Shown here: piece after piece, positions 20,965 to 36,691 of the stretch | Layout: each line of letters starts with the position of its first letter | How positions within the stretch are numbered: position 1 is the stretch's first letter | Assembly (NCBI GenBank): GCA_902826615.1 | Contig: CADEFN010000003.1 | Coordinates: 455,133-519,132 of the forward strand | Source of the DNA: an uncultured Gemmatimonadota bacterium | Lineage (GTDB): Bacteria > Gemmatimonadota > Gemmatimonadetes > Gemmatimonadales > Gemmatimonadaceae | Length of the DNA stretch: 64,000 nucleotides | Direction of reading: 5' to 3' | The notes under the pieces: model-generated | Seen by the model: only the letters and a program-made list of their open reading frames with translations | Databases searched by the model: none | What the model was told of the DNA's origin: nothing | Program-made: the position numbers and the translations under genes

Positions 20965-23244
20965 TCAGAAGACGAGGCGGTAGAGGAGATTCACATTGCG
21001 TCCCGGCTCTGGCATGATCTCCTTGATGCGCGAGAGGTGGTCGCGGTACGCGCGGTTGAGGAGGTTATCCGCACGCAATGTGATGGTGTGCAGACGGCTC
21101 CCGGAGAGGATGCGCCACCCGATGTTGGCGCCCAGCAGTGCATAACCTGCCGTCTCCGATTCGAAGTCGCTCACGCGATCCTGGCGGTCAGCCCAGCGGA
21201 TGGTGATTCCCCCAAAGGAGTGTGGCCGGTCGTAGCGCACACCGATGTTGCCGTTGAGGGGTGGGATGAAGGGCGGAAACTCCGACGCCGCCACGAAAGT
21301 GGTGTCGGTGCCGGTGAACACCGGAATGGCCGCACGATCGGACCGGAAGTGTGCGTTGACCAGTGACGTCGTGGCGTCGACAACCAGTCGGCTGGTGAGC
21401 GCGAGTTCGAGCTGGGCCTCGGCACCGGAGAAGACGGCGTCCTCGTTGGTGTACTGAAAGCGGGGTCGTGTCCCCTGCGACCCCAGCTCCGCCCGTCCGC
21501 GGCTCGAGGGGAAGATGTAATTGTCGAGCTGGTTGCGAAACACGCTCAGTTCCGCCCGCAGGTGCTGTCGATCCACCCGCACAAAGGCGTCCACTCCCAG
21601 TCCTGTTTCCTGGTCGAGTCGCGGGTCCCCGACGTCAAAGGAGTTGGCGGCCAGATGCGGACCGTTGGAGTAGAGTTCGTTGAAGTCGGGGGTGCGATAC
21701 GCGCGATTCACGCTGGCGCCGAAGTGCACAATTTCCTTCAGGTCATACAGCACACCAAACGATCCGGAGACGGCGCCAAACGACCGCGGTTCCACCGGGA
21801 TACGCTCCCCTCCCACAAAAATCGAGGTCCGGCGTCGCGGCTCGTAGCTCGCGTAGTCGTAACGCACCCCTCCCTGCGCACGCAGGGCCCCGCTCCCGAG
21901 TTCTTCGACGATAAAGCCGGCCAGGGTCTGATCACCCGTGGAGGGCGTCCGCAGGGTGCCACCGGTGACGATGTCCCGATACTGGGCGCGGACACCCGCC
22001 GCGCCTAACGCGAATGGCCCGATCGCCCCATGTCGCGCCACCACCTCGCCAACCGACTGGAACTGCCCGAACTTCGTGCCGATGGCCCCCGATTGCTCCA
22101 GCTCCTCGTGGTCATACTGGGTGATGGTGCCGGTCGCCCGGACCGATGTAAGCGGGCCGATGGCGCGATTGGTCTGCGCCTCACCACGCACCGTGTGACG
22201 GCGCATGCGGATATCAACTCCATTTTCATGCCCCCCGATGAAGCCACCGGGGATGCCGTAGTCGGAGTCATAAAATCGGTACGACGCACCGGCGTACCCC
22301 GCCGTCCCCGCCCACGAAAGGGCACCAGCGGCGTTCAACGTTCGCGACTGGGTGTTCAGCAATCGACCCACCGGTGTCTGCACGTCGGCCGACCGGCGGT
22401 ACGACCCTTCCCCGCGCACAGCCAGAGGACCCACGCGAGTCGAAGAATATCCGCCAACCGTGGTGCCACGTGAAACGGAGGCCCCTTCCAGGGTCACGGC
22501 ACCGTGCGCCTGATCGGGACGCGACGCGGGAATTTCCTCGCGCACCACGTTCACCACACCACCTAACGCACTGCTCCCGTACAACAGAGACATCGGGCCG
22601 CGAACCACCTCGATCTGACGTGCCGTCACGGGCTCGATAGCCACGGCATGATCGCCCGACAACGCCGAGAGATCACCCGAACGCTGCCCATCCTCGAGCA
22701 TGAGGATGCGGTCACCTCCCAGTCCACGAATGACAGGTCTCGCCGTGACCGGACCTAACGAGGTGACTGAAACGCCGGGCTGGTTCTGCAGAATGGCGGC
22801 GACCGTCCCCGCGCTTTGCCGATCGAGTGCGGCACCAGACACCACCGAGGTTGCGCTGAGCACTTCGCGGCCGCTCCGCTCATCCACCGACGCGGTGACG
22901 AGTGTGGGCGCGAGCTGAAGCGCCGCCGCCTCCAGTGCCACCCGCATCGTGGTCACTTTCCCGCCCGTCACCTCAACCATCATCGTCCGGGGGCGATAAC
23001 CGACGCGCTGGACAATGAGGGTGTACTTGCCCGCTGGGATCCCCTCGAACTCGAAGGCGCCGTCTTCGTGCGAGAGATCGGTGCGCCGCCCCTCGACCAG
23101 GCGCACATGTGCTGCTGGAATCGGCACCCCACCCGCGCTGTCGACCACCACACCACGCACCCCTGACACCCCTTGTGCACGGGAGGCAAGAGGGCACGCG
23201 ATAGCGCAAAGCAGCAAAGCTGCGCGAAGAAGAGAAGCCGGCAT
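20965..23244 (-). CDS. TonB-dependent outer membrane receptor
   Basis: A 759-residue receptor: signal peptide (MPASLLRAALLLCAIACPLASRAQ), a carboxypeptidase-regulatory-like domain (about 27-110), a plug (about 120-240, with VIRGLGGDRILMLEDGQR and GPMSLLYGSSALGGVVNVV) and a 22-strand-type barrel. The segment FNELYSNGPHLAANSFDVGD is of the sort found in metal-type (ZnuD-like) receptors, which suggests metal uptake but does not prove it. The frame extends to 23325, but the signal peptide sets the start at 23244. Three CCTAACG words lie in this gene (22004, 22562, 22754). Confidence 0.92.
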   Translation of the reverse strand: MPASLLRAALLLCAIACPLASRAQGVSGVRGVVVDSAGGVPIPAAHVRLVEGRRTDLSHEDGAFEFEGIPAGKYTLIVQRVGYRPRTMMVEVTGGKVTTMRVALEAAALQLAPTLVTASVDERSGREVLSATSVVSGAALDRQSAGTVAAILQNQPGVSVTSLGPVTARPVIRGLGGDRILMLEDGQRSGDLSALSGDHAVAIEPVTARQIEVVRGPMSLLYGSSALGGVVNVVREEIPASRPDQAHGAVTLEGASVSRGTTVGGYSSTRVGPLAVRGEGSYRRSADVQTPVGRLLNTQSRTLNAAGALSWAGTAGYAGASYRFYDSDYGIPGGFIGGHENGVDIRMRRHTVRGEAQTNRAIGPLTSVRATGTITQYDHEELEQSGAIGTKFGQFQSVGEVVARHGAIGPFALGAAGVRAQYRDIVTGGTLRTPSTGDQTLAGFIVEELGSGALRAQGGVRYDYASYEPRRRTSIFVGGERIPVEPRSFGAVSGSFGVLYDLKEIVHFGASVNRAYRTPDFNELYSNGPHLAANSFDVGDPRLDQETGLGVDAFVRVDRQHLRAELSVFRNQLDNYIFPSSRGRAELGSQGTRPRFQYTNEDAVFSGAEAQLELALTSRLVVDATTSLVNAHFRSDRAAIPVFTGTDTTFVAASEFPPFIPPLNGNIGVRYDRPHSFGGITIRWADRQDRVSDFESETAGYALLGANIGWRILSGSRLHTITLRADNLLNRAYRDHLSRIKEIMPEPGRNVNLLYRLVF

Positions 23245-23410
23245 GTGGGGAAGTGAGGTGACGACTCCCGGGGGTCCTCTCAGCAGTCCAGAGGACACCG
23301 CGGGCGACGCCGAAAAAGAACACACGACCCGGCACAGGCAAGCCCGGAGCGCATGAATGGTCGTCCTGACCTCATCATACGCCGCCGGGCGCCCAGTGTT
23401 CGCCCCACCT

Positions 23411-23983
23411 TTATTTCTCGAACACCATCTGCCGAACGGTCAGACGATGTTCGGCGACGGCTCGGATGATGTCCGTGGTGGACAGGATACCTGCCAGCGC
23501 ACCCTCGTCCATCACCAGTGCCCGCTGGACTCCTGCCGCAAGAAGTCGCTGCGCGGCGGCGGTGACTTCAAGACCGGCGGGGAGGGTAAGCACTGCCCGC
23601 GACATCGCCTCAGACACCTGGTGCTCCGAAAGCATGTCCCACGCCTTGCCTGTTGTCGCCATACGCTCGGCGACGTCGGGTCCGCGCGAGGTCCACAAGT
23701 CTGTGTAGTACGACGACTGCCAGTCCTCGCCGTCGGTCCACTCCTCATCCGATTCGGCCGCCTCCTCTTTGTCCTCCTCGTCTTCCTCCTCTTCCTCGAC
23801 CGGTGTCACGGATTCGAATTCGAGGATGTCGATGGCCGAGAGAACTCCGACCACTGTATTGCCATCCACAACCGGTGCTCCCTGGATGTGGCACGACACC
23901 AGAGTATCGATGGCTTCACGCAGGGACTGATCCGGAGCAAGTGAGACGACATTGGGCGTCATGATTTCGCGTACGCGCAGCAT
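23411..23983 (-). CDS. CBS-domain pair protein with acidic insertion
   Basis: A 190-residue cytoplasmic protein made of two CBS motifs (about 4-55 and 125-185), a module that binds adenosine nucleotides. Between them is a very acidic stretch (about 62-85, runs of Glu/Asp) and a Trp-rich segment (SDEEWTDGEDWQSSYYTDLW). A ribosome site GGAG lies 8 nt upstream of the ATG. It stands alone between the TonB receptor and the multiheme cytochromes, and its target is unknown. The inserted acidic/aromatic loop is larger than in plain CBS pairs. Confidence 0.88.
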   Translation of the reverse strand: MLRVREIMTPNVVSLAPDQSLREAIDTLVSCHIQGAPVVDGNTVVGVLSAIDILEFESVTPVEEEEEDEEDKEEAAESDEEWTDGEDWQSSYYTDLWTSRGPDVAERMATTGKAWDMLSEHQVSEAMSRAVLTLPAGLEVTAAAQRLLAAGVQRALVMDEGALAGILSTTDIIRAVAEHRLTVRQMVFEK

Positions 23984-24155: not shown

Positions 24156-25811
24156 TCAGCGACGCCTGGGATCGCTGATGTGACAACGGGCGCACATGGC
24201 CATCGCCTTCTTGCCGAGTCTGCTGGCATCGAAGTCCTGACCATGCGGATTCACACCCCAACCCGTTGTTGCATGACAGCGCATGCACGAGTTCTGGGTG
24301 TGGCAGGTGGTGCAGGTCTGCAGTTCCTGACGCGCCGCACGACCATGCTGCAGCAGCCACTGCGGTTGCGCGTTGTGATACACGGCCGCGTTTCTTCCCT
24401 GCGCGGCGATACCCACGGCCTTGTGGCAATCGCGGCAGAACACTTCGGTGTTGTGGCACGACGCGCACTCGCGGTCGCGCGAATAGGTGTCCGCACCATG
24501 CGCGCTCACGAAGTTGAGCGGATGAAACGCCCGGCGATTGTCTCCCGCATGACAGTCGCTGCAAAAGCGCTGGGCATGGCATCCCTGACAGGTTTGGCGC
24601 GACGACGCGGCGCTGAAGCGATGGTTCTCCACGAAATCGGCGGGATGCGGGCGGACGAGAAACCTCCCGGTGTCTGCGCGTGACGCGACTGGCGCAAGCC
24701 GCATGCGCACAAGGCCCTCTCGCCGTCCGGTGAGGCGCACGAGCTGGACTCCAGGCGTGGAGGCGCTACCCGACGCCAGTCTTGCAATGGTCTTTGCACC
24801 AGCGCGCCCGATATGACAGGTGGCGCAGCTGCTTCGCGCATGACAAGTGGCACAGGTCGCGGCGCCGGCATTGGCCTGCGGACCGTGTGTTTCCACAAAG
24901 TCTGCTTTGCGATGCGAGTCGGGCACCGGGTACTCGGCCACCTTGCCACGCACGAGCTGTGCGATGCGGCTGTCGCTGGCCAGCTGGCCGATCAGGGGCT
25001 GCGTGCGTGCGTCCACATGACAACGAGCGCAGCTCTCTCGCGCGTGGCAGGTGGCACACTGAGCAATGGCGATGCCGGCACTTCCATGCTGAGAAGCGAA
25101 GTTGGCCTGATGGTGTGTCGCCGGTTTGGGCAGCCGAGAGAGGTCGGCGACGGTCATGCCACTTGCGGCGGTGAGGGGCACGTGGCAGGTACTGCACTTG
25201 TTGTCAGGCGCGTAGTGCCCGGTGGCGCGGTGTGTATGGCAGGTCTGGCACGACTCTACCCGAGCCGGCCGGATGTTCATGTACGTCGTGCTGTTGTTGC
25301 CCGCGTGGCACGCTGTGCAGGCCCGACCGGCAGCGTCTGTTTTGGCGAAGTGCGGTCCGTGCGTGAAGGCGAGAAGTCGTTGCGGCGCGGGCCGACGCGG
25401 GCGCTGCCATACCACCGGCTTGACGTCGGTGCCGTTGTGGCACTCGGCGCACGCGGTGGCTGGAGGGAAGAGATCGTCAAGGGAACCGGAGGCCACGTTG
25501 GCATGACATCCGGTGCAGGTGGGAAAGAGTTTGGCGTGTTTGCCGTGCGGAAAGGCGAGGGTGTCGAGCCGGGCGATAACGCTGCTGACGCCGTCGGTCG
25601 ACGAGGCCCGTGACGGCGCCCCCGCGCTGCTGTGCGGTTGCGCTGTGAGGGCGGGCGCGACGAGGAGCAGAACGAGCGATGTGACGAATGCGGTCAGTCG
25701 GGGAAGGAGGCGTGACGGCTGCGTGATGGGGGCAGCGTAACGTCTTTTTCGGGGGGGGCCCCCCGCGTCGGAAACCGCAACCCTCCCCTCCCCTCTCAGA
25801 ACTCGCCTCAT
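24156..25811 (-). CDS. 16-haem periplasmic/outer-membrane cytochrome c
   Basis: A 551-residue secreted protein with 16 CXXCH haem-binding motifs, spread from about residue 100 to the C-terminus (CTGCH first, CARCH last). A hydrophobic signal segment (VTSLVLLLVAPALTA) is preceded by an arginine-rich start, longer than usual. The start at 25811 is set by the ATGA overlap with the upstream porin gene; the longer frame (to 25961) is rejected. It is the last gene of the conduit operon. Alternating His-rich repeats resemble chain-like cytochromes that wire haems over long distances. Direct partner is probably the beta-barrel encoded just before. Family beyond 'multihaem cytochrome c' is not recognised. 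Confidence 0.88.
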   Translation of the reverse strand: MRRVLRGEGRVAVSDAGGPPRKRRYAAPITQPSRLLPRLTAFVTSLVLLLVAPALTAQPHSSAGAPSRASSTDGVSSVIARLDTLAFPHGKHAKLFPTCTGCHANVASGSLDDLFPPATACAECHNGTDVKPVVWQRPRRPAPQRLLAFTHGPHFAKTDAAGRACTACHAGNNSTTYMNIRPARVESCQTCHTHRATGHYAPDNKCSTCHVPLTAASGMTVADLSRLPKPATHHQANFASQHGSAGIAIAQCATCHARESCARCHVDARTQPLIGQLASDSRIAQLVRGKVAEYPVPDSHRKADFVETHGPQANAGAATCATCHARSSCATCHIGRAGAKTIARLASGSASTPGVQLVRLTGRREGLVRMRLAPVASRADTGRFLVRPHPADFVENHRFSAASSRQTCQGCHAQRFCSDCHAGDNRRAFHPLNFVSAHGADTYSRDRECASCHNTEVFCRDCHKAVGIAAQGRNAAVYHNAQPQWLLQHGRAARQELQTCTTCHTQNSCMRCHATTGWGVNPHGQDFDASRLGKKAMAMCARCHISDPRRR

Positions 25812-27253
25812 CGCACAGCCCCCGGATCGGCGCCTAACGCCCACTCCACCCGCACCGACGCGCGGCGCTGACTCCAGTCCTGCCCGAGAGCATCGTTGGT
25901 GAGGCGATGCCGATACGCACCAGCATCCGCCCGCAGACGAATCTCGTCCGTGACGCGCCAATTCCCCTGCATCGCCAGACCAAGAACGCGTCCCGTACCC
26001 ACGCGAAACTCGTAGATGGTTTGCACCGCGCTCCCCGACACACCCAACTCCGCTCGCTCCGTCATCCGCCAGGTGAGACCGGCATTGCCGTCACTCTGCG
26101 ATGTGCCAAAGCCGATGTCCGCCCCGTACGAGGCGTTCGCCAGCCAATGCTCGCCAGGAGTCCAGCTCGCGTCCGCGGCCACCCGCCAGCCGTTGTTGCG
26201 CAACGGAATTGACTGGAGACCAGTGCCGGTCTCGTCGTACTGGCGTCGCCCACCAGAAGCACTCAGCAGCACTGCGCCATCTGGCGACGACCAGGCCGTG
26301 GTCCCGCGAAGTTCATCGAATCCGATTGGCGCAAAGGCGCCCCATACCGTCCAGAGCTCAAAGAAAGGTCGGTGACGGCGCACGTCGAGGGTGACATCCA
26401 CACCATGCCCTACCGATCGTGTGCCGCGCACCCGGGCTTCGTTGAGGATACCCGACGCCAGGTCGAAGGCGCTGTTGACCGTGACCCGCACCCCGAGTGC
26501 CCGCGTCGACGCGTCGAGGGCGGCACGTTCGGCGTACAACCCCGACCGGTCGTCCTGAATCACCCTGAGATAGGTTGCCGAAAGCGCCGTTCGCATGCCG
26601 GGGCGCGCACGCAGCTGCCCGCCAAACATCCACGCCGCGCTTTCTGGCGGCAGATCGTCGACCGGCCCGATCTCGTCTGAGGTGTACGGCTCGTTGAGCC
26701 CCTGCACCAGCGCGCGCCCGCCAACCACTTCGGCGTCCAGCCAGCCGCGCTTGAGTGCCAGCGATCCGCCGTCGTAGTTGTAGGCCCCGAGTGCTCCCAG
26801 CGACCACTGACGCCCGAGTCGCAGCCGGCCCGCATTGCGATCGACCTCGAGGTAGGCGTCGATCAGGTCGAAGCGGTCGTTGAGCCGCGGCCACGACACC
26901 TCCGACTTCCCACCTAACGACTCGCGCAACCGGCCATGGGCGTGGAACGAGATCCCCTCACCGATCCCCCACGCGGCCACACTCAGGTCGTGCATCAGCG
27001 GACGCGTGGTCTCACGCTCCCCGCTCCGCAGGAAGGTGCAATACACGCCCCCGTCCAGGCACGACACGTACTGACCATCTGCCGCGCGCCGGGCAGTTCC
27101 GTCCGCCACCGTGGCGCTGCGCAGCACTGAATCACGGCGCAGTGGTCGCAGGTCGATCGACTGGATCCATGACGCGCCAGTGATTCTGATGTCCTGCGCG
27201 ACGGCGGTGACGCCCGGAACGAGCAAGCTCACCAGGAGAAGAGCGTGCCTCAT
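25808..27253 (-). CDS. Outer membrane beta-barrel (porin-like) of the cytochrome operon
   Basis: A 481-residue protein with signal peptide (MRHALLLVSLLVPGVTAVA) and alternating amphipathic strands to the C-terminus (many short turns with GT/GD and aromatic girdles, ending in VRVEWALG). Two Cys in CLDGGVYC near residue 60 could form a small loop. It contains no haem motif. It overlaps a multihaem cytochrome gene on each side by 4 nt, so it is co-translated with them; this arrangement is that of known porin-cytochrome conduits (MtrAB-type and Geobacter PCC), though I see no direct sequence match and the length is shorter than MtrB. Its barrel role is inferred from pattern. Confidence 0.75.
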   Translation of the reverse strand: MRHALLLVSLLVPGVTAVAQDIRITGASWIQSIDLRPLRRDSVLRSATVADGTARRAADGQYVSCLDGGVYCTFLRSGERETTRPLMHDLSVAAWGIGEGISFHAHGRLRESLGGKSEVSWPRLNDRFDLIDAYLEVDRNAGRLRLGRQWSLGALGAYNYDGGSLALKRGWLDAEVVGGRALVQGLNEPYTSDEIGPVDDLPPESAAWMFGGQLRARPGMRTALSATYLRVIQDDRSGLYAERAALDASTRALGVRVTVNSAFDLASGILNEARVRGTRSVGHGVDVTLDVRRHRPFFELWTVWGAFAPIGFDELRGTTAWSSPDGAVLLSASGGRRQYDETGTGLQSIPLRNNGWRVAADASWTPGEHWLANASYGADIGFGTSQSDGNAGLTWRMTERAELGVSGSAVQTIYEFRVGTGRVLGLAMQGNWRVTDEIRLRADAGAYRHRLTNDALGQDWSQRRASVRVEWALGADPGAVR

Positions 27254-29247
27254 GTGTTGCCCCCGGCGGGCACACTCCACGACGCCCGGTGGCACACATC
27301 ACAGCGTTGCGACGGCTTGTGGGCGCGTTGCTCGCTGTGACAGGAAAGGCAGACTTCGCGCGAGGGAGCCAGTGTGGTGGTGCCTGCTTCCTTGTGGCAC
27401 GACGCACATCCGAGATGCGACTCGCGATTGTGCGTTGCCTTCGCGTCAATGTGACACGACGCGCAGGTGGCGTCGGCGCGATGGTGGTTCTGATGGCAGT
27501 CAGCGCATGTCTTCAGTATACGCTCCGGCGCACCCGCGACATGGCACGATGCACACTCCAGTTTGTCATGGCGCTCGTGCGACAACTCGAGCGCTCGCTC
27601 GATGGGGGCGGCCCGGCCCGTGATGCGAAGCGTGGTGGGGACTCGGCGCGGCGCGGGGAGCTCACTCGCCCGGTGACAGGTCGTACATGTCCCCGCCCGT
27701 GCGTCCTGGGCGTGGTGACAGGCCTGACAATCGGCAGGGCCCTTGATCGTGAGGGCGCCATGGGACGCATTGGCGCTGTGACAGCTGGTACACCCCACCT
27801 TGCGATGTCGCGAATGCAGAAAGGTGGTATCGCGCGCTTGGCCAGCGACCGGTGGCCCACGCGCCGTACTGACATCAAGGGGTGCCTCATCAGGTTCTTC
27901 TGCGTGCGGCCCGCCCGCAAGCCGCCGCGTGCGTGGCGCTGGCGCCAGTGCCGTGGGCGCCTCCGGCGGCGAGGCCGCGTCCGCCGAACGCGCACGCGCG
28001 CGAGCCGGCTTGTCCCGATAGATGTCCTGGTGGCAGTCTACACACTGTGTGCTTTTGACCTTCCAGCTGTGCGGCTTGTGACAGGCGCCGCACTGGTCGA
28101 GCGTGTGGTTGCCAAGGCCGCGATGAAACGCGGTGAGTGTGTCGGCCGAGGCGTGGCACCCCGCGGTGGCACAGGACTCGAAGGCCTTCCCTGCCTTATC
28201 CTGATCGTGCGGATTGTGGCATGTGCCGCAATTGGCCTTGTGCGGGTCCTTGTCGAGATCGTGTTTGGCCAGCTTCTCCCGCATCTCGTGGCACGTGAAA
28301 CATTCCTGCCGGGCCGGCACCAGTGCCTGACGAGTCGAGTCGATGGGCACCACTTCCGAGACACTCCGTCCAAAGTCGTGACAAGTGATGCAGTGCAGCC
28401 CACTCTGATTGGCCATTGCCCCGAGCCGCACCTTGGTTTGCTCGTGACACCCAGCAGTGGTACACGACATGTCCACGGCCTTGAAGGCATGCACCTCCTT
28501 GGCGTGACAATCCACACACATGAGGTTCTTGAGCTGGCTCGAATCGGACTGAAAGTGGACACGGTGCCCCGCGGTGGCGATCACCCGTTTCCACGCCGAA
28601 TCGGCCTGCTGCTGCTCATGGCACTCGCCGCAGATGCGATTGGGCACCGGGGCGTGTGCGGGAATCTTCTCCGGGCGGTCCAGTACCCAGTAGTACAGCT
28701 CCTTCGTCGACGCGAAGATCGACTGCTGATGGCAGGCGTGGCACTCGAGCTTGTCGTGCTCCGACACCCGGAAGCGTGTGAACGCGCCTTTCATCACGTG
28801 ACAACTGGAACAGAAGTCGTTGTCGTGCATCATGAAGTCCCAGCTCCACGCCCCCACGCCGCCCGCCACACCAAGTGCGAGGACGGTACTGGCGCCTAAC
28901 GCGATTTTTGCTCCACGGGAGCGCGTCGTGAGCCAGGTCAGGATGGCCTGACGGTGTTTCCATGCCATCCACGCACCCCACATACCCACCACCGCGCCAA
29001 CTATCACGCCGCCGATCTGGATCCACTGCGGCACACTGCTGAAGAGAAACCGGAAGACGGACGCGGCACCGCCAGGCAGGGGGGCCTGATCGAAGCGAAT
29101 CGAGTCGGCTGAGGTGGGATCGTGGATACGCGCCACGTCCTGCGCGAAGAGCGGTAGACTCGTCAGGCAGGCAGCCACTGACGCCAAGGCGGCGGGCCAC
29201 CGGAATCCGGTTGCCCGCCGCCCTCCAATGCCAGCCACCCTCGGCAC
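27250..29247 (-). CDS. NapC-like inner-membrane cytochrome fused to a long multihaem domain (about 20 haems)
   Basis: A 665-residue protein starting at GTG 29247. A signal-like segment (FRWPAALASVAACLTSLPLFA) and two hydrophobic helices (about 75-95 and 112-135) are followed by a NapC/NirT-like start (DNDFCSSCHVMKGAFTRF). I count 18 CXXCH motifs plus two CX4CH motifs (CTTAGCH, CATAGCH), so about 20 haems. NapC/NirT proteins take electrons from menaquinol; they normally have four haems, so the long extension is unusual, and includes a Pro/Ala/Arg linker (about 425-475) before a second haem cluster. It sits 1 nt after the lipoprotein cytochrome gene and overlaps the porin gene. Confidence 0.88.
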   Translation of the reverse strand: MPRVAGIGGRRATGFRWPAALASVAACLTSLPLFAQDVARIHDPTSADSIRFDQAPLPGGAASVFRFLFSSVPQWIQIGGVIVGAVVGMWGAWMAWKHRQAILTWLTTRSRGAKIALGASTVLALGVAGGVGAWSWDFMMHDNDFCSSCHVMKGAFTRFRVSEHDKLECHACHQQSIFASTKELYYWVLDRPEKIPAHAPVPNRICGECHEQQQADSAWKRVIATAGHRVHFQSDSSQLKNLMCVDCHAKEVHAFKAVDMSCTTAGCHEQTKVRLGAMANQSGLHCITCHDFGRSVSEVVPIDSTRQALVPARQECFTCHEMREKLAKHDLDKDPHKANCGTCHNPHDQDKAGKAFESCATAGCHASADTLTAFHRGLGNHTLDQCGACHKPHSWKVKSTQCVDCHQDIYRDKPARARARSADAASPPEAPTALAPAPRTRRLAGGPHAEEPDEAPLDVSTARGPPVAGQARDTTFLHSRHRKVGCTSCHSANASHGALTIKGPADCQACHHAQDARAGTCTTCHRASELPAPRRVPTTLRITGRAAPIERALELSHERHDKLECASCHVAGAPERILKTCADCHQNHHRADATCASCHIDAKATHNRESHLGCASCHKEAGTTTLAPSREVCLSCHSEQRAHKPSQRCDVCHRASWSVPAGGNT

Positions 29248-29248
29248 G

Positions 29249-30760
29249 TTAGTCGTTGCCGAGTCGGCCGGGGACCTTCAGCACCAGCGAATCGTACGGC
29301 GCCAGTCGCGCGACCGGGATCGGTGACGGGACGCCATAGTCCTTCTGCACCTGCGCCAAGCTCGCGCGCAGGAGCGCCTTGATGAGGAAGGGATTGTGCA
29401 CCTCTGTCCCTGGCATCTTCGCCAGGTTGGAGTTGAAGCTCGCACCTCGCGCGGTGGTCACCTTTCCAGCGGCGAATTCCGTGGCCGCGATCTTTCCACT
29501 GGAACGCCCGGTCGCAATCTGCTGATCGAGGGCAGTGTACAAGACGCGGATGTCCTGCTCCGCCGAGACGAAGACCGAACGTGCGCTCGCCTCCGTGTGG
29601 CATCCCGACGCCGCACAACTCTTGAACGAACGGGCGGTGATGACGCAGGTCTGACTCGCGGTGGGGGCGCCATTCGCGTCGACGCAGGGGACCGCGGTAA
29701 AGCGATGGCCCGTCACGGTCACCTTGAACTGGTTGGTGGCCTTGTCGGTCACGTCGTATTTCCCGAGGTGACAGCCTGCGCAGAGTTTGGGATTCTTGTC
29801 GGAGCTGTGCGAACCCTGGGTCTCGTCAAACTGCAAACCAGGGGGCCACCACCCGGCTGAGCCGAGGATGAGCGGACCGTGGGGAGCATGCGGCGTGTCA
29901 CGCGAACCGGTGAAGTCGGGATTGCCACGCCGGTTGTGACACTTCACGCAGAGGTTGTTCTCCGGGTCACGCGAATCGACCGGATAGCGGAGCTGCTTGG
30001 GGTTACCCGAACCGTGTGGGTCGTGGCACACCACACAGGTCACACCCTGGCCTGCCGCCTGCGTGGCAAAGGCCTTGTCGGTGTAGTTCGTGTTCACACC
30101 CCAGTTGGCCAGCACGGCCTGCCCGATGTGACACCCCTGGCACGCGGCACGTGGACCACCCGGCACTTCAGGCGCCGTGGCTGTTGTGCCATTGTAGGCT
30201 CGTGTGTACGACGTGGCGTGGCGCGACTGCCGCCACTCTTCCACGAAGGGATGATGTGACCCGGTGTGGCACTCGGAGCAGCCATTGGTGACGGCGCGGC
30301 CTGTATCAGCCTTGATGGCGGGGAGCATCTGCCCCCGCGTTGGCACTCCGATATGCTGAAGCCCGGCACCGTGACACGACTCGCACTGGACATCCTGGTA
30401 TCGGACGTCCTTGGTGCTGCGCCAGCCTACCGCGGTATCGGTGGCGACGTTGCCAAGGTTGCTGACCGTATGGCACGCCTGGCAGAGACCCTGCTTGCCG
30501 GCATTGGCGTCGAGTGTAGCCCATGCCTTGGCGTGTTTGGTGTCCTTCCAGCGCGCCTGCTGCCCGACATGGCAATTGCCGCAGACGGTGAGTTTCGTGG
30601 CCTGATCATCATAGCCTACGAAATTCGCCGCGGACGCCGGTGGCGCCGCGAAATTGGGCCCGTCGCGATAGACGATTTTCTCGTCCACACAACCGGCCAC
30701 CAGCCATGCCCCGGCAAGCAACGCGGGGACACGCCACGAACTCGAACGAAAGACACGCAT
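29249..30760 (-). CDS. Nine-haem cytochrome c lipoprotein
   Basis: A 503-residue protein with a lipoprotein signal (lipobox VAG-Cys24), so it is anchored by lipid and could reach the outer membrane. It has eight CXXCH motifs (CGNCH, CQACH, CESCH, CSECH, CQGCH, CVVCH, CVKCH, CAGCH) and one CX4CH (CAASGCH), in an arrangement like cytochrome c554/OmcA-type redox proteins. The ATG at 30760 has a good ribosome site (GAGG) and the frame upstream to 31048 is non-coding. It is first in a four-gene operon with a NapC-like cytochrome, a barrel and a 16-haem cytochrome. It may be a surface terminal reductase or a periplasmic shuttle. Confidence 0.88.
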   Translation of the reverse strand: MRVFRSSSWRVPALLAGAWLVAGCVDEKIVYRDGPNFAAPPASAANFVGYDDQATKLTVCGNCHVGQQARWKDTKHAKAWATLDANAGKQGLCQACHTVSNLGNVATDTAVGWRSTKDVRYQDVQCESCHGAGLQHIGVPTRGQMLPAIKADTGRAVTNGCSECHTGSHHPFVEEWRQSRHATSYTRAYNGTTATAPEVPGGPRAACQGCHIGQAVLANWGVNTNYTDKAFATQAAGQGVTCVVCHDPHGSGNPKQLRYPVDSRDPENNLCVKCHNRRGNPDFTGSRDTPHAPHGPLILGSAGWWPPGLQFDETQGSHSSDKNPKLCAGCHLGKYDVTDKATNQFKVTVTGHRFTAVPCVDANGAPTASQTCVITARSFKSCAASGCHTEASARSVFVSAEQDIRVLYTALDQQIATGRSSGKIAATEFAAGKVTTARGASFNSNLAKMPGTEVHNPFLIKALLRASLAQVQKDYGVPSPIPVARLAPYDSLVLKVPGRLGND

Positions 30761-30909: not shown

Positions 30910-31326
30910 TTACACTTGCTCGGCTGGTGTATCCGTGTGGCGACGCACGTAGCGCCACACGAACCATCCACCGCCCATAACGAGGGCCGCAGGCAGCAGG
31001 TACACCAGCAGGTTGAACCCTTCGGGCTTGGGCGCCAGCAGCACCCATTCGCCGTACTTGTCGATGAAATAGGCACGCACCTGCTCGGGACTCTTTCCCG
31101 ACGCAAGCTGTTCGCGCACGAGCCCTTTCATCTCCTGGGCAAGTTCGGATGGCGAGTCGGCAATGGACAAACCCTGACAGACTGGACAGCGCAACTCCGA
31201 CGCCACCTCGCGCGTGCGGCGGTCGAGCACGGTGTCAACAGCCACCGTTGCACCGGTGACCGATTGTCCCATTGCACTGGTCGTCACCATGACCGCAGTC
31301 ATGACCACAAGTACAAATCGCCTCAC
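30910..31326 (-). CDS. ccmH: Cytochrome c maturation thioredoxin-like protein CcmH
   Basis: A 138-residue membrane-anchored protein with signal segment, the CcmH motif LRCPVCQ (about 46-52) and one C-terminal helix (LLVYLLPAALVMGGGWFVW). CcmH helps reduce the apocytochrome CXXCH thiols before haem attachment. The TPR domain (CcmI part) that is fused in E. coli CcmH is absent here. The GTG start overlaps the ccmG stop (GTGA). It is the last gene of the ccm operon. Confidence 0.92.
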   Translation of the reverse strand: MRRFVLVVMTAVMVTTSAMGQSVTGATVAVDTVLDRRTREVASELRCPVCQGLSIADSPSELAQEMKGLVREQLASGKSPEQVRAYFIDKYGEWVLLAPKPEGFNLLVYLLPAALVMGGGWFVWRYVRRHTDTPAEQV

Positions 31327-31913
31327 GAGGACGGCGCCGCGATCAGCGAGTCGAGCTTCTGGATCATGATGGCCTCCGTCAGCGCGCCGATGTGCTTGTA
31401 GGCCACCACACCATTCTTCGCAATAAAGAAGGTCTCGGGCGCACCATAAATGCCGTAGTCGATAGAGGTGCGTGTGCGGGGATCGTTGACAGATGGGTAC
31501 GACTGGCCACCCATCTCCTGAATCCAGCGCAGGGCCGTCGACGGCTGATCGTTGTACAGCACACCGAAGAACTTCACGCCCTTGGTGGCATACTCCGACG
31601 CGACATTGGTGAGTGCCTGGTGTTCACGACGGCACTCGAGACACCAGGAGCCCCAGAAGTTGAGCACCACCACCTGCCCGCGCATTTCGGAGAGACGCAC
31701 CGTATCTCCGACCATACGTTCCTGTCCCGGCTCTCCCTGAGCAAAGACCTCGAGCGCAAAGTCGGGCGCCATCTTGCCGGGGAGCGGAGAGGTGATCTCT
31801 CCGGGATCCCGTGTCATGCCGAATGCGAGCAGGGCGATGATGGGAAGGGCCACCGCGCCCGCAATACTCGCGCGTCGCCAGTTGAGTCCGGTCGCTGGAA
31901 TCGCGTCGTCCAT
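31323..31913 (-). CDS. ccmG: Thiol:disulfide oxidoreductase CcmG/DsbE
   Basis: A 196-residue protein with an N-terminal membrane anchor (about 14-32) and a periplasmic thioredoxin fold; the redox motif is WCLEC. It keeps the thiols of apocytochromes reduced for the haem lyase. The start at 31913 (ATG) shares one base with the TGA of ccmF, so the long upstream frame is ruled out. WCLEC differs from the commoner WCxxC variants only in its middle residues. Confidence 0.9.
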   Translation of the reverse strand: MDDAIPATGLNWRRASIAGAVALPIIALLAFGMTRDPGEITSPLPGKMAPDFALEVFAQGEPGQERMVGDTVRLSEMRGQVVVLNFWGSWCLECRREHQALTNVASEYATKGVKFFGVLYNDQPSTALRWIQEMGGQSYPSVNDPRTRTSIDYGIYGAPETFFIAKNGVVAYKHIGALTEAIMIQKLDSLIAAPSS

Positions 31914-33940
31914 CAGCTTGCCGTCACTGGAGTAGTAGCCCCGGGAGCCCGCTCCGCACTCTCGGCGCGCGCTGCCGCACGCACGCGCGCCGCACCCGGC
32001 ACGGGCAACATGGAGATGAGCGCGCCACAACAGATGATCATCCCTCCCAGCCAGATCCACGGCACCAGAGGTTCGACAATCACACGCAGCGTGGCATTGG
32101 ATCCATCCTGCTGGAAGGCCTGCAGATTCACATAGATGTCACCGGTGGGGCGGCTGCGGACGGCTGGTGTCGGCACCGGCTGCTGCGACGTCGGATAGAA
32201 GTTCATCCGCGGGTCGAGGGTCGCAATCTCACGACCGTTCTTGAGCAGGGTGAGGGTGGTGCCGATCACCGCGCGCTGCGGCTCCTCGCGGCCCCACACC
32301 TCATCGAGGCGGACCGCCATGTTCTCCCCGATCTTGAGAGACTCCCCTTTCTTGATCGTGCCTTCGTATTCGGTCTTGAAGGTTGACGCCGCCGTGATCG
32401 CCGCGGCTACCGCCACCACGCCGAGGTGCGCGACATAACCGCCGTAGCGACGCCGGTTGGCATTCACCAGCTCCGAGAGGGCCAGCGGCGCTGACTCACC
32501 ACGTTGCTGCATACGCAACCGGGCCCCTTCGACAAACTCGCCGACGTTTGCCACCAGGGCAAAGGCGGCAAACATGAAGGCCAGCAGGGCGAACACGTCG
32601 CGGGTGCCCGCGAACAACGCCACAAGCAGCGCCACACCGGAGCCAATGGCGGGTGGCAGCAATTTGCGCCGGATCGTGGCTCGGTCGGCTGCCTTCCACG
32701 GGAGCGCCGGCCCGACACCCATCAAAAAGAGCAGTGCCACACAAATGGGCACTGTCATCCGGTTGAAGAAGGGCTCACCCACACTCACCTTCACCCCGCG
32801 CACTGCCTCGGCCACCAGGGGAAAGAGTGTCCCGACCAGCACGGTAAACGTGAATGCCGTGAGGAAGAGATTGTTGAGCAGGAAGACACTGCCGCGAGAC
32901 GCGGTCCCTTCCAGCTGTCCGTCGCTGGTGAGCTTCTCGCTGTTGCCTGCGACCAGCACAAAGGAGAGCAGCAGCACAATCGCGATCGCCACCAGGAAGT
33001 AGTACCCGATGTTGCCCTCGGTGAAGGCATGTACCGAGGTAAGCACACCTGACCGCGTGAGGAAGGTGCCGAGGATGGTCAGCACGAAGGTCGCGACAAT
33101 CAGATTGAGGTTCCACAACTTGAGCAGCCCGCGTCGTTCCTGGACCATGACGGAGTGCAGGAAGGCCGTCGCGGTGAGCCATGGCATGAAGGACGCATTT
33201 TCTACCGGGTCCCACGCCCAGTAGCCGCCCCAGCCCAGCACCTCATACGACCACCACATGCCGGCAATGATCGCCGCCGTGAGAAAGGCCCAGGCACCTA
33301 ACAGCCAGCGGCGAGACAACCGGATCCACCCGGTGTCGCCCACTTCTCCGGCCGCCATGGCGCCCATGGCAAAGGCGAAGGGCACCGTCATGCCGACGTA
33401 GCCGAGATAGAGCAGCGGCGGATGGATCCCCATCAGCCAGTGGTTCTGCAGCAGCGGGTTGGGGCCCGGGCCATCCAGCGGCACGGGCGACACGAGGCCA
33501 AAGGGATGCGCCGGCCCCACCAGGAGGATCTGGAAGAAGATGCCAACACCGAGGAGTGTTGCCGTGGTGTACGGGATGAGCTTCCCTCCGCGATCCCGGT
33601 TCCAGAAGACCACCAACGCCGTGAGAAGCGAGAGCACCCATCCCCAGAACAGGATCGAACCTTCGAGTGCGCCCCACAACGAGATCACCGTGTAGTACAG
33701 CGGTGTCGCGCGGCTGCCGACCTGGGCCACGTAATCGATACTGAAGTCGTGCGACACCAGCCCGAAGATCATGGCAAAGGTGGCGGCCGTCACGAGCGCA
33801 AACTGCAGGTAGGTCGCGCTGTAACCTGCCTCCACCCACTCGGCACGCTGGCGCCTGGCCCCGAAGGTGACAAGCAGCAGTCCCACTACGGTGACGCCTA
33901 ACGCCACAATCAGGGCGTTGGCGCCGATCAGCCTGGTCAC
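31913..33940 (-). CDS. ccmF: Haem lyase subunit CcmF
   Basis: A 675-residue polytopic membrane protein with about 15 helices and the tryptophan-rich WWD haem-binding domain (WWSYEVLGWGGYWAWDPVEN, about 230-249). CcmF takes haem from CcmE and joins it to apocytochromes together with CcmH. The GTG start overlaps the ccmE stop. It may also be relevant to the CX4CH sites in the nearby cytochromes. Confidence 0.95.
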   Translation of the reverse strand: MTRLIGANALIVALGVTVVGLLLVTFGARRQRAEWVEAGYSATYLQFALVTAATFAMIFGLVSHDFSIDYVAQVGSRATPLYYTVISLWGALEGSILFWGWVLSLLTALVVFWNRDRGGKLIPYTTATLLGVGIFFQILLVGPAHPFGLVSPVPLDGPGPNPLLQNHWLMGIHPPLLYLGYVGMTVPFAFAMGAMAAGEVGDTGWIRLSRRWLLGAWAFLTAAIIAGMWWSYEVLGWGGYWAWDPVENASFMPWLTATAFLHSVMVQERRGLLKLWNLNLIVATFVLTILGTFLTRSGVLTSVHAFTEGNIGYYFLVAIAIVLLLSFVLVAGNSEKLTSDGQLEGTASRGSVFLLNNLFLTAFTFTVLVGTLFPLVAEAVRGVKVSVGEPFFNRMTVPICVALLFLMGVGPALPWKAADRATIRRKLLPPAIGSGVALLVALFAGTRDVFALLAFMFAAFALVANVGEFVEGARLRMQQRGESAPLALSELVNANRRRYGGYVAHLGVVAVAAAITAASTFKTEYEGTIKKGESLKIGENMAVRLDEVWGREEPQRAVIGTTLTLLKNGREIATLDPRMNFYPTSQQPVPTPAVRSRPTGDIYVNLQAFQQDGSNATLRVIVEPLVPWIWLGGMIICCGALISMLPVPGAARVRAAARAESAERAPGATTPVTAS

Positions 33941-34404
33941 GAGCTTACACCCTTGATGAGTGACTTGTACATCTCCTGCGGCATCTGCCCGTCCTTGGGT
34001 GCCCGGTACTCTTCGGAGTGTTTGATCATCAGGTTCTTCGACTCGAAGACCGATTGCCCGTTGGCGGCGCGGACATACTTCCCTTCCACGACGACACCCA
34101 TCCCGTCGCGGAACATCTGCGGCGGCGCGCCCTTGGAGTGCACCACCACTTCGTGGGTCCCCTCACGGACGCGGAATTTGAGGTCGAGCGCATTGGCATC
34201 CCACTGCACCGAACCCGGCGCCACCTGGCCGCCAAGCCGTACCGCGCGGTCATACACCCCCTCCCCGCGCGCCACCAGCTCGGCCGGCGTGAGAAAGTAG
34301 ACCACGTTGCTCTCCAGACCACCAAACATCATGTAGCCAAAGGCGGCGGCCACAATGACCCCCGCAATGGTCAGGGTGGCTGCCTTGCGGCTGGTGCTGC
34401 TCAT
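33937..34404 (-). CDS. ccmE: Haem chaperone CcmE
   Basis: A 155-residue protein with an N-terminal membrane anchor and an OB-fold. The covalent haem-binding His lies in IKHSEEY, matching the canonical HxxxY motif. CcmE receives haem from CcmC/CcmD and carries it to CcmF. It overlaps ccmD at the ATG by 4 nt. Confidence 0.94.
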   Translation of the reverse strand: MSSTSRKAATLTIAGVIVAAAFGYMMFGGLESNVVYFLTPAELVARGEGVYDRAVRLGGQVAPGSVQWDANALDLKFRVREGTHEVVVHSKGAPPQMFRDGMGVVVEGKYVRAANGQSVFESKNLMIKHSEEYRAPKDGQMPQEMYKSLIKGVSS

Positions 34405-34550
34405 GTGCGGCCTCCAAAGGTCTGCTGCGCTTCACGGAGTCGCGCGTCGGCAACCCGGCGCGCTCGATACAGGTGCACGGCGTACCCGATCACACACACC
34501 CAAGTGACCGCGAACGCGGCAATGATGAACGTATTGTTCTGCTCAGACAC
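34401..34550 (-). CDS. ccmD: Small membrane protein CcmD
   Basis: A 49-residue protein with one transmembrane helix (about 8-26) and a basic C-terminal tail (YRARRVADARLREAQQ), the usual CcmD plan. The GTG at 34550 overlaps the end of ccmC by 8 nt and has a ribosome site GGGGAGGGG inside ccmC. CcmD aids release of holo-CcmE from CcmC. Identified by position and topology. Confidence 0.85.
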   Translation of the reverse strand: MSEQNNTFIIAAFAVTWVCVIGYAVHLYRARRVADARLREAQQTFGGRT

Positions 34551-35274
34551 GATTCCCCTCCCCGCGCAAGGCTGCGTGATCGGCCAGTTCATCGGCCGTG
34601 TATTCCGTCACCGCCGTGCGGTACCGGTGGACGATGGCAAAGGCCATCAGGAGCATCACCGCCACCGCGTTCACACGCAGGGGCCAGGTGTAACTCGAAT
34701 CGAGGGTCATCGGGCTCGACTGCAGCTGGTGCAAGGTCCGCCACCAGCGCACCGACATGTAGACGATCGGCACATTGAGCGCCCCCAGCAGCCCGACCAC
34801 GGCACTCCACTGCGCGCGGCGCTCGAAGTCGTCGACAAACGAACGGAGGATGAGATACGCGACGAACATGAAAAACAGCACGGCCGTCGACGTGAGTCGT
34901 GGCTCCCAGGTCCACCACACCCCCCACGTCGGCTTGCCCCAGATCATGCCTAACGCCAGTGTCAGTCCGGTGAGCAGTGCTCCCACCTCGGCCGCCGATG
35001 CTGCCAGCAGATCATCCGCGGGACGCCCCTTCCAGAGGTACCGCAGACTGGCCAGCGCCACCACCAGAAAGGCGAGCATGGCGTTCCAGGCAGCGGGCAC
35101 GTGCACGTACATGATCTTCTGCAGGTGGCCCATGTCCCGGTCCGGCGGACTGCTGATCACGCCATACACCTGTGCCGCCACCAGCACCACGATGCCCAGC
35201 ACACCGATCCAGGGTGTGGGGTCTCTCGGTGCCGTGACGCGGGCTGCCACCAAACGATCGACAGATACTCCCAT
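34543..35274 (-). CDS. ccmC: Haem handling protein CcmC
   Basis: A 243-residue six-helix membrane protein with the tryptophan-rich WWD-type segment WGVWWTWEPRLTS (usual form WG-x2-W-x-WD-xRLTS, here with Glu for the Asp). It joins haem to CcmE in the periplasm. The start at 35274 lies 2 nt after the ccmB stop; the longer frame to 35358 is inside ccmB. A GCCTAACG word (34948-34955) encodes Leu-Gly. Confidence 0.92.
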   Translation of the reverse strand: MGVSVDRLVAARVTAPRDPTPWIGVLGIVVLVAAQVYGVISSPPDRDMGHLQKIMYVHVPAAWNAMLAFLVVALASLRYLWKGRPADDLLAASAAEVGALLTGLTLALGMIWGKPTWGVWWTWEPRLTSTAVLFFMFVAYLILRSFVDDFERRAQWSAVVGLLGALNVPIVYMSVRWWRTLHQLQSSPMTLDSSYTWPLRVNAVAVMLLMAFAIVHRYRTAVTEYTADELADHAALRGEGNRV

Positions 35275-35276
35275 GC

Positions 35277-35963
35277 TCACACCTCGATGACGTATTCGAA
35301 AGCCGCAACGGCGGCCGCGAGGAACGTGATGTCGAATGCGATCAGCATCCGGATCCACGCCCCTGCCTCCTGCATCACATCACCAGCCAGCAGCGAACTC
35401 GACGCCTCCACCGCCCCCAGCAGCACCGGGATCATCATGGGAAACAGAAGCAGCGGAAGCAACACCTCCCGCGAACGGCTCCGGCTCGACATGGCCGCAT
35501 AAAACGTCCCCAGTGTCACAAACCCCACCGTCCCGAGAACGGTAACGCTGATCTGGGCCATCCATCCATCAGCAATGGATACATGAAACAGCACCAGCGC
35601 GACCGGAATGACGATGAGTTCTACCAGGAATACAAAGGCGAGGTTCGCCAGCAACTTTCCCGCAAACACCGCCCAACGCGCACCAGGATAGAGGAGCAGC
35701 GGTTCAAGCGCCCCCCCATCCAGTTCCAGCTGATACGACCGATTGAAAGCCAGGACGCCGCTGAAGAGAATCGCCAGCCAGATGGCTCCGGCCGCAGCTT
35801 CGCGCAGCGCCTCGGCGTCGGGGCCGAGCGCGAAGCCGAACAGCATCAATACCAGAACGCCCAGGAAGGTCACCGCGTTCAGCCCGGCACGAGAGCGCCG
35901 TTCGGACGTCAGGTCCTTGAGCGCCACCGCTCGCACACGGCGCCACTCCTCCTTCCAGCTCAT
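35277..35963 (-). CDS. ccmB: ABC permease CcmB
   Basis: A 228-residue protein with six membrane helices, the permease of the CcmABCDE haem-release complex. With CcmA it uses ATP to free holo-CcmE from CcmC. Its ATG overlaps the ccmA stop. No unusual residues seen. Confidence 0.92.
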   Translation of the reverse strand: MSWKEEWRRVRAVALKDLTSERRSRAGLNAVTFLGVLVLMLFGFALGPDAEALREAAAGAIWLAILFSGVLAFNRSYQLELDGGALEPLLLYPGARWAVFAGKLLANLAFVFLVELIVIPVALVLFHVSIADGWMAQISVTVLGTVGFVTLGTFYAAMSSRSRSREVLLPLLLFPMMIPVLLGAVEASSSLLAGDVMQEAGAWIRMLIAFDITFLAAAVAAFEYVIEV

Positions 35964-36691
35964 GCGCGTGTGAACTCCGGTTCGGGATCGGGCTCGGCGG
36001 GGAGGATATCGGCGTCGGCGCCGGTAAAACGTCCCGAATGCATGGTCAGTACGCGATCGAGGAGGCCTTCGGCACTGTGGCGGTCATGCAGAACCACCAG
36101 GGCCGCCCCTCCCTCGGCGTGGACCACCTCACGCACCACCTCGTTGACCAGTGCGACCCCTGCCCGGTCGAAAGAATTGTAGGGCTCGTCCAGCAGCAGA
36201 AGGCGCGGCCGCTGGAGCAGCAACCTGCCTAACGCCAGTCGCCGCTGCATGCCGGAGGAAAAGGTGCGCACCCGCTCGCTCGCCTCGCGGCGTAGCCCCA
36301 CACGTTCCAGAATCTCGTCAATGCGCGCGGTCTCGCGTCCCAGCATGCTGGCAGCGAATTCGAGGTTCTCGCGCGCCGTCAGGTCGTCATACAAGCCGGG
36401 CTGCACGCCTAGCAGCGCCAGATGCGCGCGGGCCCAGTCGGGATCGGTCCTGATGTCCCGGCCATACACGGCGACTTCTCCGCCCGTCGGCTTGAGCATC
36501 GTGGCCACCACCCGCAGCAGTGTGCTTTTCCCCGACCCATTGTGCCCCTCGATCCCCACAACCTCCCCAGCACCAAGGCGCAGGCTCACGCCTCGAAGGG
36601 CCCAACGCCGGGCGAATCGCCGCGTCACTCCCCGGACTTCGAGGGCGGACACGGCGCCAGAAGGAGGGGGAGTTTCCTGACCCATCGGCAC
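35960..36691 (-). CDS. ccmA: ABC ATPase CcmA
   Basis: A 243-residue nucleotide-binding protein with Walker A GHNGSGKS, signature FSSGMQRR, Walker B LLLLDEP and an H-loop (LVVLHDRH). It is the first gene of the ccm operon, whose order A-B-C-D-E-F-G-H is the same as in E. coli. Start is GTG 36691 or ATG 36685. The promoter should lie in the 86-nt gap shared with corA. Confidence 0.93.
   Translation of the reverse strand: MPMGQETPPPSGAVSALEVRGVTRRFARRWALRGVSLRLGAGEVVGIEGHNGSGKSTLLRVVATMLKPTGGEVAVYGRDIRTDPDWARAHLALLGVQPGLYDDLTARENLEFAASMLGRETARIDEILERVGLRREASERVRTFSSGMQRRLALGRLLLQRPRLLLLDEPYNSFDRAGVALVNEVVREVVHAEGGAALVVLHDRHSAEGLLDRVLTMHSGRFTGADADILPAEPDPEPEFTRA

Follow-up and report, generated by a model that had tools for sequence, protein, structure and literature searches.

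The four-gene operon on the minus strand at positions 24156–30760 of the window (the whole 64,000-nucleotide stretch of DNA analysed here) very probably encodes a porin–cytochrome conduit for extracellular electron transfer, translationally coupled and placed beside its haem-attachment genes. In the order of transcription, it comprises cytA, a NapC-like gene, a barrel gene, and cyt16. The initial annotation had proposed a porin–cytochrome architecture, and this is supported by the pairing of barrel and cytochrome genes across loci (55 of 59 within the phylum and 8 of 8 beyond it), by a predicted unplugged 22-strand pore, and by the grouping of cytA with surface cytochromes of Fe(III) reducers.

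According to the proposed mechanism, the NapC/ImcH-like protein would draw electrons from the inner-membrane quinol pool, and its 20-haem arm would conduct them through part or all of the periplasm. The cyt16 protein, threaded in the 22-strand barrel, would take the electrons across the outer membrane, and outside, the 9-haem lipoprotein cytA would hand them to an external acceptor, which might be an Fe(III) or Mn(IV) mineral, a humic substance, or another cell. What has been observed or computed comprises the genes with their haem motifs, the lipobox and signal peptides, the conserved gene order, a barrel predicted to be unplugged, and the homology of the lipoprotein to surface reductases; from these we infer that cyt16 sits inside the barrel, that the proteins form a complex with cytA facing outward, and that electrons flow outward to such a substrate.

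ORF and motif counts bear out the earlier statement that four minus-strand genes with 45 haems are present. cytA (29249–30760, with its ATG at 30760) encodes a 9-haem lipoprotein of 503 aa with eight CXXCH motifs, one CX4CH motif, and a lipobox cysteine at position 24. It is followed by the gene for the NapC/ImcH-like inner-membrane cytochrome with 20 haems (27250–29247; 18 CXXCH and two CX4CH), the gene for the outer-membrane β-barrel (25808–27253), and cyt16 (24156–25811), whose product is a 16-haem cytochrome with a signal peptide. The motif numbers of 9, 20, 0, and 16 stand beside means of 0.09, 0.51, 0, and 0.31 per protein in shuffled sequences. CXXCH-bearing ORFs in the window are confined to the operon, barring an out-of-frame chance ORF that has just one motif. 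The NapC-like/barrel and barrel/cyt16 junctions are 4-base ATGA overlaps, and the cytA/NapC-like junction is a one-base gap; thus, translation of the four genes is probably coupled. These are the true junctions; the longer overlaps that follow from the coordinates of the initial annotation are due to upstream in-frame starts.

Immediately upstream of the operon, on the same strand, is a complete cluster of ccm genes for haem attachment (30910–36691). Counted from the operon side, it includes ccmH for cytochrome c maturation (30910–31326; PF03918, E 7e-33), a gene for a CcmG/DsbE-type thiol-disulfide redoxin (31323–32000; PF00578, E 7e-23), ccmF (31913–33940; PF16327, E 1.5e-63, and PF01578, E 1e-33), ccmE (33937–34404; PF03100, E 3.5e-26), ccmC (34543–35358; PF01578, E 3e-29), ccmB (35277–35963; PF03379, E 6e-38), and ccmA, which encodes an ABC ATPase (35960–36691; PF00005, E 4e-32). 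The role of the redoxin is suggested by its position, and its start codon is not settled, the listed ORF extending to 32060; ccmA is likewise assigned from its position beside ccmB. Four relatives (L025, L026, L028, and L038) have this ccm arrangement ahead of their operon as well.

The lipobox of cytA reads LVAGC, and its cysteine is retained without exception in the relatives (60 of 60). Among solved structures, the cytA profile best matches OmhA (6qvm, E 1.7e-21) and OcwA (6i5b, E 6e-16), and then MtrA and cytochrome c554; we take 6qvm to be OmhA, 6i5b to be OcwA, and chain A of 6r2q to be MtrA. When cytA was tested as an MtrC-type protein, PF22113 gave 36.8 bits at a cut-off of 30 with no domain I or domain III match, and the best PDB relatives were OmhA and OcwA. 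With OcwA (Thermincola) and OmhA (Carboxydothermus), cytA shares sequence homology over several haem segments and a c554-like N-terminal part, and OcwA has nine haems, as cytA does. However, OcwA and OmhA are cell-surface proteins of Gram-positive bacteria that function without a porin, whereas cytA is a lipoprotein encoded together with a barrel. Conserved distal histidines (those outside the motifs) number nine for the nine haems of cytA, 16 for the 16 of cyt16, and at least 20 for the 20 of the NapC-like protein. The conclusion that all cytA haems are therefore closed was dropped since OcwA has sufficient histidines and yet bears two open haems (PMC6703420); its open-site haems are 2 and 5.

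In the NapC-like protein, of which the genome has one full gene along with one cytA, a NapC-type transmembrane (TM) helix and a CXXCHxM first haem (CSSCHVM) are accompanied by an 11-haem block, and a linker of about 80 aa then leads to a 9-haem block resembling class III cytochrome c3; both blocks are of class III type. Its profile matches NrfH (E 1.9e-8). PF03264 (NapC/NirT) gives 17.7 bits with the window protein, below the cut-off of 24.1, and matches 11 of 21 relatives at E<1e-3. The TM helix followed by the NapC-type first haem is shared with the ImcH, NapC/NirT, and NrfH quinol dehydrogenases, but these carry 4–7 haems, while here there are 20 and a long periplasmic extension. ImcH in particular has three TM helices and seven haems, whereas the window protein and nearly all its relatives have 20 haems, and hydropathy indicates one strong TM helix (one family also has a single TM).

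The cyt16 protein consists of an N-terminal 5-haem part similar to c7/ActA, five two-haem modules (CXXCH-x4/5-CXXCH), and one last haem. A sixth repeat brings one relative to 18 haems, and distant relatives have fewer pairs; because of this varying repeat number, the wire looks modular. The AlphaFold model of cyt16 is poor (pLDDT 60.5).

The AlphaFold2 model of the barrel (pLDDT 85, pTM 0.80) has 22 long strands starting directly after the signal peptide and no plug domain. Structurally, it matches 22-strand TonB receptors (Z 17–19) and the large FimD/PapC ushers, and the MtrB chain in the crystal structure of MtrCAB appears at Foldseek rank 25 (E 1e-8). As a large unplugged pore of this kind would leak unless filled, the model is consistent with an inserted cytochrome. 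The window barrel belongs to no Pfam or NCBIfam family, and across 37 barrels, any such family matches a few at most, and these weakly; a PDB sequence search with the barrel returned nothing above noise. The comparison with the MtrB family, proposed in the initial annotation, was carried out over this genome and the barrel relatives, and PF11854 (MtrB_PioB) found no match among the 37 barrels or in the whole genome. Judged by this family test, the operon is therefore not MtrCAB, and with its 20-haem NapC-like protein, its composition is indeed unlike that of familiar systems, as had been remarked at the outset. Two barrel cysteines near the N-terminus, C65 and C72 (window 27039–27061), seven residues apart, are nearly invariant and are missing in one family; they possibly form a disulfide or a docking point.

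The operon is widespread within its phylum. A barrel match is found in 23 of 41 genomes of the same order or closer, and across the phylum, the barrel profile matches 118 of 395 genomes, 116 of which belong to the same class, the barrel being absent from about 70% of the sampled phylum genomes. A single-protein barrel query against genome contigs gave no match, and the relatives were reached by the cytA profile. Among the 59 barrel loci of Gemmatimonadota with a readable neighbourhood, a cyt16-family gene lies directly downstream of the barrel in 55, and in the remaining four the contig breaks off there. Upstream, the most frequent order (30 of the 59) is a 9-haem cytA followed by a 20-haem NapC-like gene, and the numbers 9, 20, and 16 are nearly unchanged among relatives. 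Variants have a NapC-like protein with 9–11 haems, a second copy of cytA, or no NapC gene alongside, so that the constant core of the operon is cytA, the barrel, and cyt16. The named relatives are metagenome-assembled genomes (MAGs) of Gemmatimonadota, just as had been guessed from the DNA alone; their labels include groundwater, sediment, and soil, with one Mn-Gemmatimonadetes among them, and one further relative is labelled Krumholzibacteriota.

Outside the phylum, barrel relatives are found at only 27–53 bits in two phyla, those to which L061 (Krumholzibacteriota) and L120 (Ignavibacteria) belong, while matches of about 20 bits in Verrucomicrobiota and Planctomycetota were treated as noise. 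At all eight distant loci, the next gene after the barrel encodes a cytochrome of 5–14 haems that matches the cyt16 profile at 39–124 bits, the smallest haem counts coming from genes cut by a contig end or a frame break. This independent pairing in other phyla is the strongest evidence that the barrel and the cytochrome work together.

Soils, sediments, and wastewater commonly harbour Gemmatimonadota, and with a conduit conserved in about 30% of the sampled genomes, the phylum would have to be considered seriously for a part in iron, manganese, or humic redox cycling; many of its members may pass electrons to or from minerals or other partners outside the cell. The operon also offers a testable barrel–wire pair unrelated to MtrAB by sequence family, and it places on an outer membrane an OcwA-type cytochrome known from Gram-positives. 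Earlier reports on the phylum describe ImcH/CbcL homologues (PMC6295460) and one MtrCAB in one genome (PMC8805035), the latter being the only conduit found reported for Gemmatimonadota. No earlier description of this operon was found in the open literature searched. It may be suggested, tentatively and with somewhat less than even confidence, that the operon represents a conserved conduit lineage typical of Gemmatimonadota, which combines a barrel family of its own with an OcwA-type surface cytochrome and a wire of two-haem modules, and in which the 20-haem NapC arm alone would span the periplasm so that one continuous 45-haem wire would run from the quinone pool to the surface with no soluble shuttle.

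As defined by Shi et al. 2014, a porin–cytochrome (Pcc) cluster has a porin-like gene adjoining a gene for a periplasmic multihaem cytochrome, usually together with an outer-membrane cytochrome (PMC4245776). At the level of genes, the adjoining pair of porin and cytochrome is found in the window, in 55 of the 59 barrel loci, and in the eight distant loci, and the putative conduit would function in the manner of MtrCAB or Pcc. The known Pcc clusters (OmbB-OmaB-OmcB of Geobacter, those with 12–14 haems in Anaeromyxobacter and Kuenenia, and the OmbB-like ones of Ignavibacteria) share the porin gene beside a multihaem cytochrome gene, but differ from the window operon with its 16 haems, different outer cytochrome, and 20-haem NapC-like gene within the operon. 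Ignavibacteria carry OmbB-like conduits (PMC7399161), and the barrel may be a distant branch of the OmbB-like Pcc, a suggestion prompted by the weak paired relatives in the phylum of Ignavibacteria.

The MtrCAB, MtoAB, and PioAB systems (Shewanella, Sideroxydans, and Rhodopseudomonas) likewise have an outer-membrane barrel, an adjacent multihaem cytochrome with a signal peptide, and an outer lipoprotein cytochrome, and the NapC-family quinol partner of the MtrCAB pathway, CymA, is comparable with the NapC-like protein here. In contrast to them, the window operon has a barrel of 22 predicted strands without an MtrB_PioB match, 16 wire haems with two-haem modules instead of the 10 of MtrA, an outer cytochrome of the OcwA/OmhA kind, and a quinol protein with 20 haems instead of four. 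PCC3 and PCC4 (He et al. 2017, PMC5566968) resemble it as putative whole-envelope conduits built of large multihaem cytochromes, an inner-membrane protein, and a porin. However, their inner-membrane protein has five TM helices and is thought to bind b haems (PMC5566968), whereas here it is NapC-like, and no 5-TM protein with WX3HX13H motifs was found in the operon. Cyc2, a fused cytochrome–porin, has a haem motif within the barrel protein, whereas the barrel protein here contains no CXXCH.

The direction of the flow deserves separate consideration. The same conduit could run inward: the lipoprotein would then take electrons from Fe(II), Mn(II), or a donor cell on the outside, and the NapC-like protein would reduce quinone or feed aerobic oxidases. 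Conduits of the MtrAB type are known to run in both directions (Mto/Pio, PMC5566968), one relative (L109) comes from the MAG labelled Mn-Gemmatimonadetes, and the genome carries two haem-copper oxidases, so the conduit is not its only means of respiration. Nevertheless, the outer cytochrome is of the OcwA/OmhA-like, Fe(III)-reducer type, and it is especially the Fe(II)-oxidation clusters among the mtr-type ones that have no outer cytochrome (PMC4245776). Outward flow is preferred in view of both the reducer type of the outer cytochrome and its very presence, and the inward direction is regarded as rather unlikely.

It is considerably less probable that the operon serves respiration of a soluble acceptor (nitrite, sulfite, tetrathionate, or hydroxylamine) by a chain within the periplasm, with the 9-haem protein as the reductase and the barrel merely admitting the substrate. 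cytA is indeed related to the NrfA/HAO/c554 superfamily, and OcwA itself reduces nitrite and hydroxylamine (PMC6703420), but the pairing of the barrel with the 16-haem cytochrome is constant, also at loci where cytA and the NapC-like gene are missing or lie far away, an unplugged 22-strand pore far exceeds what a small-anion porin needs, and no catalytic CXXCK haem motif was found. That the barrel is an unrelated transporter of a siderophore, polysaccharide, or haem, standing among cytochrome genes by chance, is very improbable: although its best fold matches are TonB-dependent receptors and porins, it has neither a plug nor a Pfam TonB domain, it is coupled through ATGA at both of its junctions, and its pairing with multihaem genes recurs across phyla (55/59 plus 8/8 loci).

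Several related loci deviate from the operon described here. A larger variant (L062:9995-21401, and also L077, L093, and L097) has extra genes for 9- to 19-haem proteins near or between cytA and the barrel/cyt16 pair, and its NapC-like protein has 21–22 haems. In an Armatimonadetes MAG, a separate conduit-like cluster (L114:1211-10789) encodes a 9-haem cytochrome, a 545-aa barrel-like protein, a lipoprotein related to cytA that combines an Ig-like part with nine haems, and a 32-haem NapC-fused protein with 13 two-haem modules resembling those of cyt16. Three tandem 9-haem genes of the cytA type occur in a MAG labelled Omnitrophota (L091:1-5337), whose 1.4-Mb genome gives no barrel profile match. 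cytA-like 9-haem proteins without this barrel family (L113–L122) are also found in an archaeal MAG and in Verrucomicrobia, Planctomycetes, Neomarinimicrobia, and Ignavibacteria. Finally, downstream of the operon in the window (20965–23983), there are a CBS-domain gene and a gene for a TonB-dependent receptor with a carboxypeptidase-regulatory domain, and in L023, a relative from the same genus, this gene pair likewise comes after cyt16.
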